Positions 44,896-50,791 of a stretch of DNA of 64,000 nucleotides are shown here, one piece after another. A program made the translations under genes and the position numbers. The notes beneath the pieces are model-generated. The model searched no databases. It was not told the DNA's origin and saw only the letters and a list, made by a program, of their open reading frames with translations. The stretch lies in NCBI RefSeq assembly GCF_900155595.1, contig NZ_FTPB01000004.1, positions 744,001 through 808,000 on the forward strand, in the 5' to 3' direction. The first letter of the stretch is position 1; each line of letters opens with the position of its first letter. The stretch comes from Actinomyces mediterranea (lineage in GTDB: Bacteria; Actinomycetota; Actinomycetes; Actinomycetales; Actinomycetaceae).

Positions 44896-47800
44896 TCAGC
44901 TCGCGGGGGGCGCGTAGGATACGCCGGGGATGACCGGGCGACTCACGCGACCGTTGTCGTCACGAATCCATAGGTCGCGCCATGCTCCGCCCTCGACCGC
45001 ATCGATCATGGGAACCCCCGGGCGCCACGAGGCAAAGCCCGCGGGATAGCCCGGCTTTGTGGGAGTATGAAGTGTCGTCCTCAGCGGTTGTCCATTGTTC
45101 GCATCCCACACGCGCGCAGTCCGATCCCTGCTCCCGGTGACCACACGCGCCCCATCCGCCGACACCGCCACCGACCACACGGAATCACGATGGCCCTCAA
45201 GCACTTTCACCACTCCACCGGTGTCTGCATCCCACACACGAGCAGTCCCATCTCTGCTACCGGTGACCACACGCGCCCCATCGGTCGACATCGCCACCGA
45301 CTCTACACGGTCAATGTGACCCTCAAGCAGACTCACTTCCTCACCCGTATCCGCATCCCACACACGCGCAGTCCCATCTCTGCTTCCCGTGACTACACGC
45401 GACCCATCCGCCGACACCGCCACCGACGTTACCCAGCCGTAGTGGCCGGACAAGACGCTCGTCACGTCACCGGTGTCCGCATCCCACACACGCGCAGTCC
45501 GATCCCTGCTTCCGGTGACCACACGCGACCCATCCGCCGACACCGCCACCGATGTCACGGTGTCACGATGGCCCTCAAGCACTTTCACCTCCTTACCCGT
45601 GTCCGCATCCCACACACGCGCAGTCTGATCATCGCTCCCGGTGACTACACGCGACCCATCCGCCGACACCGCCACCGACCACACTCTGTTGGCGTGGCCA
45701 CGACACACGCACATCACCTTGCCAGTATCCGCATCCCACACACGCGCAGTCCCCTCCCATTCTCCGGTGACCACACGCGACCCATCCGCCGACACCGCCA
45801 CCGACAACACGGCGTCACTGTGGCCCTCAAGCACCTTCATCACCTCACCGGTGTCCGCATCCCACACACGCACACTTGAATCCCCACTCCCGGTGACCAC
45901 ACGCGCCCCATCCGCAGAAAGTGCAACAGAATCTACGCTGTTCACGTGCCCCTCAAGCACGCTCACTACTCCACCGGTGTCCGCATCCCACACATGCAAA
46001 GTCCCATCCATGCTCCCGGTGACCACACGCGACCCATCGGCCGACACCGCCACATTGTGACAGTCGACTAGTGGGTTGAGAATGCCACCCTGCATCAACA
46101 GATTCTTCCCCGAGATCTTCGGAGCGACCCAGGCCGCTGATGAGCTGTCAACCGGCCACAGCGCACCTTTATGTCGAGTACTCGCGAAGGTCGCTTGAGC
46201 CAAGCGCGCATCCGTAAAGTTGGTCCGGTTCAGGTTCACGTTCTCGAAGACGGCACGTCGAAGCGAAGTACCGACAAAACTCGCTCCGCTGAGGTCGATC
46301 AACGCCCCTTCGCTACCTTGTACCACGAGGTCATCCAGGTGGGCACCATTGAGATTGATGCCTCGTAAAACCGGAACGGGCAGCCCATGTTGACGCGCAT
46401 GAAGCGCATAGCCGACGAGAAGCTCACTGACCTTCGGTCGGTAGGTGGTACGCCAACGCGTGACGTTCCTCAGAGCATCCGAATACTCGTCCTGGAAGAG
46501 CTCGCCGAGGAAGGTGAGCGTCTCTCGGCTCGGCACGCTGATCGCCCAACCCTCCGGCTCGTTCCGTCTTGCTGACTCAGCGAGATGCAGAGCTAGGAAG
46601 TACTCCAACAGAGAAGTGTGCGCAAAGCGGAATCCTTCGTCAGGAGCGTCTTCGCGGCTCAGGAATGTCGCCGTTCGGAGGTCCTCCTCCAAACGTTCTA
46701 TGTCGGCACCCGCGTAGCGCCTTTGGAGGCTGGCATCTCCTGATACCCACTCATGGAACCAGTCGTGGAGGTCTGAGACGGGCAAAAGTGTGGTTCCCGA
46801 ACGCCACAGGTAGGCCGCCAAGGAAGCAACCAATCGCGGCTTGTGCTCGCGCGCGATGTAGTGTTTCTGGTCATCACGGTCCAGCCACTCCTCTGTCATC
46901 AATCCGTAGAGGGTGGCTCCGGATGCAGCTTCTCCGGCAGCGCGTTTTCGCTCGAGTTCAGGGACCTGTTTTGAGATGAGCTTGAGCGTGTACGGTCGCT
47001 CCGAGAGTTCGCTCAGGTTGTGAATTCCTCTGACTGTCTCCATCACCGCATCGACTGGAATCGAAGGAACGGCTGCTCCCAGATAGGTGCGCACTTGTTC
47101 CTCAGTCAATGGCAGAAGGGTCATCGCCCGATAGGTGTCGGCAACAACATCGCCACGATCTCGGAGGAGAAAATGGTTCCGCTGCGCCCTCAAGGTTGGG
47201 AAGTACTGCGTTCGACAGGTGAGCATCACCTTCGTTTGAGACCTCAGCTCCGTAGGCACCACGTCGATCACGCCGAGAAGTTGCTGGGTGAAGCCAACTC
47301 CTACACGTTCATCGAACTTGACCAGCAGCTCATCAAGACCGTCGAAGATCACCAAGCACGGAACTGAGGCAAGCCAACTGACGAACCGCTCCCATGTGTA
47401 GTACTCCGACTCCTTGGGGAGCCAGCCGTCGCGCATGCAGGTCTCCACGGTTGACCTCAGTGAGGACGCATCCTCAACACTCTTGATCCGCTTGAAGTCG
47501 AAGTACAGCGGCATCGGCAGAGTCGGATCGGTCTCACGTCTCTTCTCCAATTCTGTTGCCAGACGTTGAGAGGTCACTGTCTTGCCCATTCCGTATTCTC
47601 CGAGCAATGCAAAGAACTGCCCTGCCTCTGGATCCGACACCCACTCCATGAGAGCTTCGAGGACCGGCCTTCCTGCCTCGGCGTTGGGGGCAGGATCCTG
47701 CTTGTCCAAGCTCAGGGCTGCCGCCCGCGGGTCTTCGATAATGCGACCTTGCTTGAGAACCTCATCGAACTTCCCCATCGTGGCAACCGTCGGGCTCAGC

Positions 47801-48537
47801 AGGGGGCGGTATCCTCGCGGCGACTCACCTGGTCCTCGCTCGATGATGGCACGGACAACTTTGGCGGCTTGCCTGGCTGCGACTATCTGATCTCGCTCCT
47901 TGTAAGAATTGTTCTTGCCTGCGCCCCAGTCACAGATCCCCTTGACCACCAGCCATCGAACCGCTTCCCGGCAAGCGAGCTCAATACCAGAACCCTCCAT
48001 CTCGCCACCCACAACTTGGGAATGCAGTGCTTTCAAGGCATTTCGATAGCTCTCATTGTCGACCAAGGGATCACCGCTGACCACGATGCCCTTATGGATC
48101 GTCGGCCAACCATCCTCCCCAGCACGAGCATGTTCCAACTCAAGTACCCGTCGAAGCAGGGCTTCGGAGGCATTCCTCGGCGTCGCCCTGAGAGTGAGCT
48201 CCCCACTCGGTTCAACTCGGACATGCATGTAGTTGAGGACAGCAGTACTTACGAGAACATCACCGATGTTCTGCTTGTCAGGATTGATGCCGAAGGCGAT
48301 TCCCACTGCGTAGACTTCAGTGGGATTCCAGTGTTGTACCGCTTCCACGGCCGCCTGTTGGGCCTCCCCGGTGGTCTGCTTCGAAATGGCATGGATGACC
48401 TGCACTCCACCGAATTCACCCAAGTGGAAGTAGCTCCGTCCTCCGCGAGGAACGCGATGAGCCGGTTCTTCCTCGCTGCCCGTGAATTCCCGCCACACAG
48501 CCCGAGTCTCGTTCGGATTGAAGGTCAGCAGCACCAC
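44896..48537 (-). CDS. PNP-NACHT-pentapeptide-WD40 STAND protein, probable antiphage sensor
   Basis: 1213 residues, GTG start with GGAG eight bases upstream. Domains in order: (1) purine-nucleoside-phosphorylase/MTAN-like domain, 1-235, with VYAVGIAFGINPDKQNIGD, VVGGEMEGSGIELAC (nucleoside-binding ME-G) and VVKGICDWGAGKNN (catalytic Asp203); (2) NACHT/STAND NTPase, about 290-655, Walker A GEYGMGKT (313-320), Walker B CLVIFDGLDEL (394-404), sensor MLTCRTQYF and the terminal FRFAHTSLLEYFLALHL; (3) pentapeptide-like repeats, about 722-786; (4) eight WD40 repeats of 42 residues, 824-1156; (5) a 57-residue tail. STAND proteins of this type sense phage components and then activate an N-terminal effector, here a nucleoside/NAD-cleaving candidate. 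Role inferred. Confidence 0.85.
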   Translation of the reverse strand: MVLLTFNPNETRAVWREFTGSEEEPAHRVPRGGRSYFHLGEFGGVQVIHAISKQTTGEAQQAAVEAVQHWNPTEVYAVGIAFGINPDKQNIGDVLVSTAVLNYMHVRVEPSGELTLRATPRNASEALLRRVLELEHARAGEDGWPTIHKGIVVSGDPLVDNESYRNALKALHSQVVGGEMEGSGIELACREAVRWLVVKGICDWGAGKNNSYKERDQIVAARQAAKVVRAIIERGPGESPRGYRPLLSPTVATMGKFDEVLKQGRIIEDPRAAALSLDKQDPAPNAEAGRPVLEALMEWVSDPEAGQFFALLGEYGMGKTVTSQRLATELEKRRETDPTLPMPLYFDFKRIKSVEDASSLRSTVETCMRDGWLPKESEYYTWERFVSWLASVPCLVIFDGLDELLVKFDERVGVGFTQQLLGVIDVVPTELRSQTKVMLTCRTQYFPTLRAQRNHFLLRDRGDVVADTYRAMTLLPLTEEQVRTYLGAAVPSIPVDAVMETVRGIHNLSELSERPYTLKLISKQVPELERKRAAGEAASGATLYGLMTEEWLDRDDQKHYIAREHKPRLVASLAAYLWRSGTTLLPVSDLHDWFHEWVSGDASLQRRYAGADIERLEEDLRTATFLSREDAPDEGFRFAHTSLLEYFLALHLAESARRNEPEGWAISVPSRETLTFLGELFQDEYSDALRNVTRWRTTYRPKVSELLVGYALHARQHGLPVPVLRGINLNGAHLDDLVVQGSEGALIDLSGASFVGTSLRRAVFENVNLNRTNFTDARLAQATFASTRHKGALWPVDSSSAAWVAPKISGKNLLMQGGILNPLVDCHNVAVSADGSRVVTGSMDGTLHVWDADTGGVVSVLEGHVNSVDSVALSADGARVVTGSGDSSVRVWDADTGEVMKVLEGHSDAVLSVAVSADGSRVVTGEWEGTARVWDADTGKVMCVCRGHANRVWSVAVSADGSRVVTGSDDQTARVWDADTGKEVKVLEGHRDTVTSVAVSADGSRVVTGSRDRTARVWDADTGDVTSVLSGHYGWVTSVAVSADGSRVVTGSRDGTARVWDADTGEEVSLLEGHIDRVESVAMSTDGARVVTGSRDGTARVWDADTGGVVKVLEGHRDSVWSVAVSADGARVVTGSRDRTARVWDANNGQPLRTTLHTPTKPGYPAGFASWRPGVPMIDAVEGGAWRDLWIRDDNGRVSRPVIPGVSYAPPAS
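45070..46068 (-). repeat. Eight tandem 126-bp WD40-coding repeats
   Basis: The 3' part of the NACHT gene is built from eight units of exactly 42 codons (the last slightly shorter). Each has the core VSADG-RVVTGS-DGTARVWDADTG followed by a variable strand, LEGH and five variable residues. Framework DNA is almost identical between units (for example CCCATCCGCCGACACCGCCA recurs on the plus strand), while the same few positions differ. This indicates recent duplication or gene conversion. Confidence 0.95.
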
Positions 48538-48564
48538 CGTAGGCGCTCCACTCTCTACTGCCCT

Positions 48565-48945
48565 CTATTCTGCGAGTTGCCCCTCAGGGATAGCCCTCAA
48601 GGTATCGGTATCGAACTGTGGAGCTTCGAGATCAGGGCCCTCGAACCACACCCTTCGGGCTGCCGGTCCTCCACTCTTGGCAGCGGTGACGCACATGGAC
48701 AATGCCAAGTTCTGTTCTTTGGCGGCCTTGTTGACTGCACTGATCAGACGATTCAGGCCGCGGTTGAGGTTCGCAAGTTTATTCTCGTACGGGTAGAGCT
48801 TCTCGAACAGGTCAGCGACACTGACGAAACCGTCTGCGTCAAGCATCTCGACGATCGCCTTAAGAGCAGCGAAGTTCTGTTGGGAGAGACCCTTGAGCCT
48901 CATGATCGCTCCGCGAGCACTGACGAAATCCAAGATCCTGGCCAT
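48565..48945 (-). CDS. Small companion protein of the NACHT gene, possible winged-helix regulator or adaptor
   Basis: 126 residues, ATG at 48945 after GGAAGGA. It ends 27 bases before the NACHT gene, so the two form an operon. It looks mostly helical up to about residue 85 (LSQQNFAALKAIVEMLDADG, VSVADLFEKLYPYENKL, LNRGLNRLISAVNKAAKEQ), then a short beta hairpin with RRVWFEGP, which would fit a winged helix. No family recognised. It may be a DNA-binding regulator acting on the repeats upstream of its own promoter, or a death-fold-like adaptor for the NACHT protein. Confidence 0.75.
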   Translation of the reverse strand: MARILDFVSARGAIMRLKGLSQQNFAALKAIVEMLDADGFVSVADLFEKLYPYENKLANLNRGLNRLISAVNKAAKEQNLALSMCVTAAKSGGPAARRVWFEGPDLEAPQFDTDTLRAIPEGQLAE

Positions 48946-48968
48946 GACACCATCCTTCCGACGGTGTC

Positions 48969-49023
48969 ACCCTAGCAGATTCACTTCACTTGAGTGACTG
49001 AATTGACTGAATAACGACTGAAT
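48969..49023 (-). promoter_or_regulatory. Promoter of the immune module with direct repeats and a palindrome
   Basis: On the minus strand a TAGGGT -10 (48974-48969) has no consensus -35. Where the -35 should be lies a palindrome, TCACT-TG-AGTGA (48986-48997). Just upstream are three direct copies of GACTGAAT on the plus strand (48996-49003, 49005-49012, 49016-49023). Weak -35 plus repeats suggests control by a dedicated DNA-binding protein. Confidence 0.5.
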
Positions 49024-49120
49024 GAAGCGTTACCCCATTTCAACAACCATTCAAGCTCTTCAGATTTCGACGAGTCAGAGCGCATGCCACTGGACGCCTG
49101 CTCGCACTCCCTCCCATCAC

Positions 49121-50677
49121 TCAGCCAAAGGCGCGCTTCTCGGCCTCGTCCCAACGGGCCGCCTCGGCGGCACGGGCATGCGGGTCAGCGCCGCCTGCGG
49201 GCTCGTAGCGGCGCATGTCGGTGGAGGCTCGCACGATCTCACGCAAATCCGACAAAGAACCTTCCAATAGACTTGCGCCACGGGCCGCCACCAGGACATT
49301 GCCCAGGGTCGTCGCCTCTTCGGGGCCAGCGACGACCGGCAGGCCCGTAGCGTCGGCGGCCAGCTGGCACAGCAGACGGTTGCGAATGCCGCCGCCCACC
49401 ATGTGCACGGTTGCCACCTCAACGCCCGCCAGCTCACCAGCTTGTCGCACAGCGCGACGATAAGCCAAGGCGAGGGAGTCATCAATGCAGCGCACATACT
49501 CGCCAAGATTGCGCGGGATCGGCTGTCCGCTGGCGAGAGCGAAAGCGTCGATGCGGGCCGCCATATCCCCCGGTGCGAAGAAGATCGAATCATCGATGTC
49601 GACCACCGTGCGCAGGGGCTCGCTGGCCGCAGCAGCCGCGTCCAGCTCAGCAAACCCCGCCTCGTGACCCTGTTCGCGCCAGGTGCGCACGGCCTCGTTG
49701 AACACCCACAGGCCCATGACGTTCTTCAGGTAGCGCACCGTGCGGTCCACGCCGAGCTCATTGGTGAAATTCGCTTCCCGCGACGCCTCGGATAGGACCG
49801 GCTCAGGCAATTCGAGGCCGACGAGGGACCATGTCCCACAGGAGATGTACGCGAAGTCCGGCCCCACCCCAGGTGCAGGGGGCGATGCCGGAACGGCTGC
49901 GACGGCAGAGGCCGTGTCGTGGGTTCCCACTGCGACCACCGGGGTCGGCACGCCGGAGGGCGTGCACAGTTCCACGACCTCGGGGCGGACGCCCCCGATG
50001 GGGGTTCCGGCCTCGACCATGCGCGGAAGGATCGGGGAGATGTCCACCTCGAAGGAGCGTCTCACGGCCTCTAAGAGGGGCGGGGACCAGGTGCGGGTGC
50101 TCGCATCCATGAGGCCGGTGGTCGACGCGTTCGTCACCTCGATGACCTGCTGGCCCGTCAGCCAATAGGCGATGAGGTCGGGCAGCATGAGTAGCGTGCG
50201 CTGGTGCCCGTCGGGCAGCCCGCCCTCGCGGTATTCGGCAATGAGTTGGAACACCGTGTTGAAGTCCTGCACCTGCAGGCCGTTGGTCGAGTAGAACTCC
50301 TGCGCGGTGATCTTGGAGAACACCTCGTCGGGAATGCCGCGGGTGCGTCCGCAGCGGTAGGAGGCGACCTGGCCGCGCAGCGCCCCCGCGGCGTTGAGCA
50401 ACCCGTAGTCCACCGCCCACGTATCGATGCCGATCGCGCTGAGCGGACCCACCCGCCTCGCCCCCTCGATAAGGCTCGCGACGATCTCCTCCCACAGGCG
50501 CAGCACATCCCAGTGGAGGCGCGGCCCGCGCATGGTGGGCAGACTGACCGGCCCATTGCGGAAGCGGCGGATCTCGGTGAGTTCAACGCGCCCACCCGCC
50601 AGGGTCGCGACCATGACGCGCCCCGAGGATGCGCCGAGGTCGACGGCGCCGATGTGGACGGGTTCGCTGTTGTTCAT
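49121..50677 (-). CDS. rhaB: Rhamnulokinase
   Basis: 518 residues from the ATG at 50677 (AAAGGAGCAGCG upstream); an extended frame to 50752 lacks signals. FGGY-family kinase: HIGAVDLGASSGRVMVA (phosphate loop), GIDTWAVDYGLL (catalytic Asp region of RhaB), TNASTTGLMDASTRTW and YISCGTWSLVGLE, with VHMVGGGIRNRLLCQ and ATTLGNVLVAA at the C-terminus. It phosphorylates L-rhamnulose to L-rhamnulose 1-phosphate. Third gene of rhaM-rhaI-rhaB. Confidence 0.94.
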   Translation of the reverse strand: MNNSEPVHIGAVDLGASSGRVMVATLAGGRVELTEIRRFRNGPVSLPTMRGPRLHWDVLRLWEEIVASLIEGARRVGPLSAIGIDTWAVDYGLLNAAGALRGQVASYRCGRTRGIPDEVFSKITAQEFYSTNGLQVQDFNTVFQLIAEYREGGLPDGHQRTLLMLPDLIAYWLTGQQVIEVTNASTTGLMDASTRTWSPPLLEAVRRSFEVDISPILPRMVEAGTPIGGVRPEVVELCTPSGVPTPVVAVGTHDTASAVAAVPASPPAPGVGPDFAYISCGTWSLVGLELPEPVLSEASREANFTNELGVDRTVRYLKNVMGLWVFNEAVRTWREQGHEAGFAELDAAAAASEPLRTVVDIDDSIFFAPGDMAARIDAFALASGQPIPRNLGEYVRCIDDSLALAYRRAVRQAGELAGVEVATVHMVGGGIRNRLLCQLAADATGLPVVAGPEEATTLGNVLVAARGASLLEGSLSDLREIVRASTDMRRYEPAGGADPHARAAEAARWDEAEKRAFG

Positions 50678-50791
50678 CGCTGCTCCTTTGCGCCGATCAG
50701 GGGGTGCACGTGAATGGGAATGACGAGGGCGGGGCCGCCTGCCGTGCGGCACCCCCGATCGGCGGCTCCGCTCTCGTCGATGGGGTGGGAA

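Follow-up and report, generated by a model that had tools for sequence, protein, structure and literature searches.

Three direct repeats before a stop-split NACHT gene as the candidate operator of a receptor that may regulate itself

The locus and its promoter

We analyzed a window of 64,000 nucleotides from Actinomyces mediterranea, the minus strand of which carries a gene for an NNH6-PNP-NACHT-WD40 protein, split by one in-frame stop codon and preceded by an extended −10 element and three direct repeats. The short ORF at the head of this gene had been called a companion protein in an earlier note; it is no separate partner of the NACHT protein but its N-terminal domain, severed by the stop. 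A second copy, the C1 paralogue, lies on another contig of the same genome as one open ORF of 1397 aa with an NNH6 domain 67% identical to that of the window, and Schaalia cardiffensis, of the same genus, has a continuous copy in one open ORF of 1566 aa. We refer to the window copy, the paralogue and the S. cardiffensis copy as the Schaalia group. The features of the window copy are as follows.

49016–49023, minus strand: direct repeat 1 (distal), ATTCAGTC; the paralogue has ATTCGGAC at the same place
49005–49012, minus strand: direct repeat 2, ATTCAGTC; the paralogue copy is identical
48996–49003, minus strand: direct repeat 3 (proximal), ATTCAGTC, its end 21 bp from the −10; the paralogue has ATTCAGAC
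48986–48997, no strand: imperfect palindrome TCACTTGAGTGA, taken from the earlier note; not conserved, not beyond chance
48978–48995, minus strand: spacer of 18 nt; length kept, letters not (6/18 identical to the paralogue)
48969–48977, minus strand: extended −10, TGC-TAGGGT; TGC-TAGTAT in the paralogue and S. cardiffensis
48953–48957, minus strand: likely ribosome-binding site AAGGA, 7 nt before the ATG, recognized by eye; leader 15/17 identical to the paralogue
48565–48945, minus strand: 'companion' ORF of 126 aa, Pfam NNH6 domain (E 2.7e-29), predicted winged helix; in relatives it is the first domain of the NACHT protein
48565–48567, minus strand: in-frame TAG splitting the gene at codon 127, the sole internal stop in 1350 codons
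48535–48537, minus strand: possible restart codon GTG, 27 nt past the TAG with GGAG 8 nt before it, proposed by eye
44896–48537, minus strand: remainder of the gene, with PNP_UDP_1, NACHT, a pentapeptide-like stretch (weak matches) and WD40 repeats

The companion matches Pfam NNH6 (PF22737, 'NACHT N-terminal Helical domain 6') with 102.1 bits against a cut-off of 27, and 23 of 23 members of A4 match this profile at E ≤ 10. In the stretch after NNH6, PNP_UDP_1 (about 47839–48459) and then NACHT/NPHP3_N (NACHT at about 47083–47610; PF05729, 43.4 bits, cut-off 26.7) were the only matches at E ≤ 0.01, with no BTA domain among them. PADLOC gave four partial matches for the large protein, one of them to the 'PN-superfamily' effector model at 5e-11, and none for the 126-aa domain.

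The companion and the large ORF share one frame and are parted by the single TAG at 48567–48565. An independent origin of the companion is ruled out by this shared frame and by the junction, which is open in the paralogue, in S. cardiffensis and in the f91 relatives (see below). Compared with the paralogue, the nine codons behind the TAG carry five synonymous changes and one non-synonymous change, and per-site non-synonymous changes are fewer than synonymous ones in every segment of the gene. Because the linker past the TAG shows this excess of synonymous change, the frame was probably read as one protein for most of the divergence, and the stop is, as far as the sequence can tell, recent or read through. 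A restart at the GTG behind it is possible.

The WD40 tails consist of near-identical repeats (window 44896–46100; paralogue L003:7911–9250; S. cardiffensis L011:6200–7548), and the length difference between the 1397-aa and 1566-aa proteins seems to lie mainly in these repeat-rich tails. The sequence suggests that the WD40 tail may be a fast-changing sensor. Synonymous differences from the paralogue are lower in the WD40 tail (pS 0.54) than in the NACHT part (0.73). The same XRE-like and AraC-like genes, named by eye, adjoin the paralogue (L003:12874–15050) and the S. cardiffensis copy (L011:632–2077, with only the 3′ part of the AraC-like gene), so that these two copies appear to share one location. 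The window copy is placed elsewhere, next to a sugar-use operon, and a sugar-kinase-like gene (49121–50752, minus strand, named by eye) precedes it on the same strand. Because a consensus scan of 48400–49600 found no intrinsic terminator between them, read-through from the sugar operon could feed the immune gene too.

Read on the minus strand toward the gene, the promoter consists of ATTCAGTC-GTT-ATTCAGTC-A-ATTCAGTC, 18 nt, TGC-TAGGGT, 23 nt and the ATG at 48945. The repeats, which read GACTGAAT on the forward strand, are three exact copies with start-to-start distances of 9 and 11, as the earlier note had reported. Their triple has the top score among triples of the 64-kb window, and none of 1000 dinucleotide shuffles scored equally high (p = 0.0002 in 5000 shuffles, the floor of the test). 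The three repeats are beyond chance. The good −10 hexamer described in the same note, TAGGGT, is present at 48974–48969 on the minus strand, and the missing −35 that it remarked on agrees with the consensus scan of 48400–49600, in which no sigma-70-type promoter was found. The TGC before TAGGGT, omitted there, makes an extended −10 that likely accounts for the absent −35. We could not uphold the 12-bp palindrome: TCACTTGAGTGA is imperfect, its 5-bp arms flanking two non-complementary bases, the window contains 99 12-mers with five complementary outer pairs, and the paralogue lacks it. On these grounds it is ruled out as an operator.

Between the window and the paralogue, identity amounts to 23/28 in the repeat block, 7/9 in the TGC-TAG..T element and 15/17 in the leader, compared with 6/18 in the spacer and 11/37 in the 37 nt upstream, and the repeat spacing is identical. 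By this comparison, the repeats form a phylogenetic footprint. The core GAATNGACTGAAT occurs at exactly two exact sites genome-wide, namely the promoters of the window gene and of the paralogue; four more sites with one mismatch all fall within open frames longer than 150 aa. With no exact core sites beyond the two NNH6 promoters, a genome-wide regulon of this exact site is ruled out.

Repeat layouts before other NNH6 systems

NNH6 is rare. Counts that include the window's own genome were 2/35 in the genus, 2/213 in the family, 13/394 in the class sample and 5/396 in the phylum sample, 3 of the latter over the cut-off. A search of genome contigs returned the S. cardiffensis locus alone, and plasmid and phage collections and viral contigs (searched with A1; A4 had no usable stretch) yielded nothing informative. 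NNH6-PNP-NACHT in one frame was found in family f91 (L024, L025/L033, L026), and a TIR-like gene before NNH6-NACHT in f106 (11 loci), f107 (L045) and genome G267 (five systems); the open frames that hold the matches in f91, f106, f107 and G267 measure 525 to 2091 aa. The effector seems to come in two arrangements, a fused PNP or a neighbouring TIR-like gene (named by eye; L034–L045, L013, L018–L021).

We scored 23 upstream regions: the window, the paralogue, S. cardiffensis, three from f91, L045, five from G267 and 11 from f106, taking in TIR operons the region before the first gene of the operon. Excluded from these tests were L014, L015, L016, L047 and L048, with weak or borderline NNH6, and L046 and L027–L031, with matches to the PNP part only. 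Start codons were chosen by us throughout, and for L019 a later start was used in the anchored test and an earlier one in the unanchored test.

In one layout, class A, three repeats about one helical turn apart end 20–22 bp before TANNNT; the ranges allowed for spacing (9–12) and gap (20–23) were chosen after sight of the Schaalia-group and f91 promoters. Class A scores were 24 in the window, 20 in the paralogue, 20 in the S. cardiffensis promoter (the paralogue's orthologue), 18 in L024, where the anchored triple differs from, and overlaps, the best unanchored one, 20 in L026, 24 in L019, 20 in L013 and a marginal 17 in L021. The layout is present in 7 of the 10 distinct promoters outside f106 and f107, in three lineages, and absent from L025 (score 10), L018 (12) and L020 (9). 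Conservation of the repeats in relatives, a check that the earlier note had proposed, was therefore found in the paralogue and several distant relatives, while others are without them. L025 lacks the layout although its recognition helix is nearly identical to those of L024 and L026, which counts against self-binding. Within the same f91 system (L025/L033), which has no repeat operator, the end of the NNH6 domain (WFEGPDE...) is tandemly repeated (L033:1402–1866).

All seven class A promoters reached p ≤ 0.003 in a test that is lenient, since shuffles without TANNNT score 0; 8 of the 11 f106 regions also fell below 0.05 in it, at scores of just 11–15. In real DNA, a scan of 234,126 bases (both strands summed) covered the window and ten loci (L003, L011, L013, L018–L021, L024–L026; the f106 loci and L045 were left out). 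Nine sites scored at least 18, seven of them NNH6-system promoters, and all six sites scoring at least 20 were such promoters, two of which (paralogue and S. cardiffensis) are orthologous. A score of 17, the value of L021, was reached by 14 of 3866 tiles.

Repeat spacings are 11 and 9 in the window and 9–12 in relatives. The letters are ATTCAGTC in the Schaalia group and ATTCCCT-like in f91; three systems of the single genome G267 have AGGCGGGG, CGTGGCA and, weakly, a GCGT-type repeat. An out-of-sample test is most nearly approached by the five G267 systems, three of which have the layout; of these three, L019 and L013 had already come to notice in the unanchored scan, and L021 is marginal.

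A second layout, class B, occurs in two families, f106 and f107; here the three repeats lie close to the start codon of the TIR gene upstream. In f106 the repeats read ATCGTGAA/ATCCGGAA/AACGTGAA, with a spacing of 11 or 12 and then 9, and the best triple had p < 0.05 in 7 of the 11 closely related loci, taken together as a single lineage; the best triples of L039 and L042 differ in register or spacing. The conserved stretch at the f106 start codon overlaps a Shine-Dalgarno-like run, so that part of the conservation may be that of a ribosome-binding site. In L045 (f107), ATCCGGG occurs three times (p 0.0002), by eye behind TTGACA and a −10-like TAGTTG. Directly before the NNH6 gene within the TIR operons of L045 and G267 (6 regions), no repeats stand out.

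Combining the unanchored p values by Fisher's method, misses included, gave about 7e-14, and 1e-9 with the Schaalia group left out (10 values, 7 of them below 0.05); these are rough values from hand-typed p, with the 11 related f106 loci entered as one median and the window and the paralogue counted separately. A correlation between recognition helix and repeats (r 0.61, n 11) was given no weight, as it rests on hand-typed, hand-registered repeats, those of L026, L042 and L045 in registers other than in the unanchored test, and is confounded by shared descent.

The predicted fold of NNH6

AlphaFold2, run on 23 sequences, predicted a winged-helix topology for the window NNH6 (pLDDT 84), with three helices and a C-terminal hairpin (H7-15 H22-33 E40-42 H43-50 H57-77 E83-86 E98-103). 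The earlier note had the companion end in a possible winged helix; such a fold is indeed predicted, and it spans residues about 7–104, most of the companion. In VIA-align 2, rows 1–9 were all DNA-binding domains of the OmpR/PhoB family (Z 7.1–6.6, rmsd 2.8–3.6), where a Z below 8 may reflect a common arrangement. SaeR (Z 7.1, 85 aligned, rmsd 3.1) and PrrA (7.1) were among them, as were ArlR and PhoP; the next rows, tied within 1, included cohesin (Z 6.4) and the plant helper NLR ADR1 (6.3), and after them PhoB with DNA and AfsR (both 6.1). A second model, of an f106 sequence, showed a similar fold at lower confidence (pLDDT 76), and its list was headed by Nse1/MAGE, followed by SaeR, a TFIIE chain and CadC, with Fur and response regulators mixed in. 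AfsR is among the best 50 VIA rows of the first model and absent among those listed for the second.

With Foldseek, every match to the NNH6 model had E above 0.2; Pfam Trans_reg_C is not among the 12 families that match any of the 23 members at E ≤ 10, where HMMER filters drop weak matches; and a PDB sequence search with A4 returned 17 matches up to E 10, the best at 0.0037 ('Z4 c3ii') and none informative. Overall, the models support well that NNH6 is a winged helix, and moderately that it is OmpR/PhoB-like.

Self-regulation and its alternatives

We think it probable that the feature is the cis operator and core promoter of a self-regulating NLR-like gene, whose receptor would bind the promoter through its NNH6 winged helix. 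NNH6 is the candidate regulator because it is the protein part, besides NACHT, that all systems have in common, and its predicted winged helix is of a type able to bind direct repeats one turn apart. Because the geometry of the repeats is kept while their letters vary even within one genome, a cognate regulator inherited with each system would be the simplest account; as a counterpoint, a correlation with the protein would be expected in any case from promoter DNA passed down along with its gene. In terms of the earlier note, which had the companion as a possible autoregulator, the observation is confirmed in part and the interpretation supported in part. Its finding is real and better than it had been stated, the repeats being genuine and the central protein now re-identified.

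As for how binding, oligomeric state and sign of control might fit together, several NNH6 copies would sit head to tail on the three direct repeats, about one helical turn apart and at about −34 to −61 of a putative start site near 48962, adjoining a core promoter with an extended −10 and without a −35. The class A position would suit an activator touching sigma region 4 or the alpha C-terminal domain, and in the TIR-NACHT relatives of class B, whose repeats lie near the start codon of the TIR gene, such binding may rather be repressive. In the window copy, the TAG releases the domain, so the locus could yield a free 126-aa winged helix. This free NNH6 may act on the promoter of the window gene as well as on the closely matching operator of the intact paralogue, and the PNP-NACHT part would be made solely by restart or read-through, or not at all.

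A bolder version, which we hold only tentatively and consider doubtful, also ties expression to receptor activation: the innate immune receptor would be its own transcription factor, its winged helices shifting on the operator upon NLR oligomerisation. Oligomerisation on infection would alter the seating of the N-terminal winged helices on the three-repeat operator, and effector firing (PNP in cis, TIR from the operon) and expression reset would be one event. Operator letters and winged helix would have co-diversified, insulating several receptors in one cell, and the stop codon of the window would make the domain a free regulator, acting in trans on the intact paralogue.

The repeats could also be bound by a host OmpR-family regulator, a two-component response regulator that would make the immune gene part of a general stress regulon. 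Regulators with such a domain classically use direct repeats spaced by about 11 bp beside the −35, and the position fits an activator; however, the exact core sites number just two genome-wide, both before NNH6 genes, the four one-mismatch sites lie inside open frames, and one regulator would not explain the differing letters within one genome (L013, L019, weakly L021). We regard this account as quite improbable. Plain paralogy or chance, by which the repeats would be common merely because the window and C1 copies are duplicates, draws on the fact that the promoters of these two copies are homologous DNA, but flanks and spacer have diverged to near-random identity and the repeats have not, and unrelated DNA before distant NNH6 genes has the layout (at least 18 in L024, L026, L013 and L019; 17 in L021). 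It is largely refuted, and we give it very little credence.

We also think it unlikely that NNH6 is a protein-protein adaptor with a winged-helix fold and the repeats relics or elements with another purpose. Winged helices have roles other than DNA binding too, both models match Smc5/6 Nse1, cohesin and plant helper NLRs, and the Pfam description of NNH6 is that of a helical N-terminal domain only, yet geometry-fixed operators before NNH6 genes would stay unexplained. It is a serious possibility, although we lean against it, that the window locus is a decaying pseudogene with a recent nonsense mutation and an inherited remnant of a promoter. It has one in-frame TAG, and the linker behind the stop is still protein-like (the five synonymous changes and one non-synonymous change in nine codons); against decay stand 1350 codons without a second stop, the deficit of non-synonymous changes per site in each segment, and a restart GTG preceded by GGAG. 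This reading concerns the window copy and is compatible with self-regulation, so the probabilities of the readings do not sum to one.

The self-regulation that we favour has a likeness among STAND transcription factors. In the available parts of the reports, SARP operators (AfsR) have repeats spaced by 11 or 22 bp, with 8 bp between the final repeat and the −10 (PMC10936776), and the PimR operator has three heptamers (PMC5930380). As far as those parts go, AfsR and PimR resemble NNH6 proteins in two ways: a large nucleotide-binding protein starts with an OmpR-type winged helix (here a predicted fold), and the operators consist of direct repeats at intervals of one turn, as in the three PimR heptamers. 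They differ in that NNH6 is followed by a PNP enzyme with no BTA domain found, the NNH6 repeats stand at the gene's own promoter, and the protein resembles an immune effector and not a metabolic regulator. Going by the same excerpts, the spacing of 9–12, about one turn, is looser than in SARP operators, and the last repeat lies 21 bp from the −10 in the window and 20–22 bp in relatives, not 8 bp. With the DNA-binding domains of SaeR, PrrA, PhoP and PhoB, the best fold matches of the window NNH6 model, the likeness comes without a receiver domain, without a Trans_reg_C sequence match and at 13–14% identity in the top five fold rows.

Bacterial NACHT/NLR immune proteins generally combine a repeat-rich C-terminus with an effector-like enzyme, and PNP-type effectors in phage defence can cleave ATP. 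Proteins such as bNACHT25 share this general build and the central NACHT domain with the present one, which differs from them in its predicted N-terminal winged helix and conserved operator and has a putative role in defence. The WYL regulator of CBASS, BrxR, CapK/CapS and CdxB are comparable as transcriptional control of a potentially self-harming immune module. In the literature matches listed, as far as the excerpts describe them, the regulators of immune operons are separate proteins, whereas here the regulator would be a receptor domain or, in the window, one cut from the receptor. Among the matches listed from open-access literature on NACHT, NNH6, winged helix/wHTH and autoregulation, there was no NLR that regulates itself via an N-terminal winged helix. 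The accessible part of a 2020 survey of NTP-dependent conflict systems describes PNPase and NACHT domains and one kinase-coupled wHTH, and no such operator (PMC7159879).

Self-harming immune receptors need the right dose, and little is known about the regulation of bacterial NLR genes. If NNH6 binds operators, a Pfam family described just as a helical N-terminal domain would gain a function. If the proposal is true, a similar winged helix would connect STAND immune receptors with STAND transcription factors such as AfsR, and such systems would be recognizable in genomes by a short operator signature. Genome G267 (L013, L018, L019, L020, L021) carries five different NNH6 systems, whose repeat operators are either distinct from one another or not recognizable, and offers a natural test bed for insulation between them.
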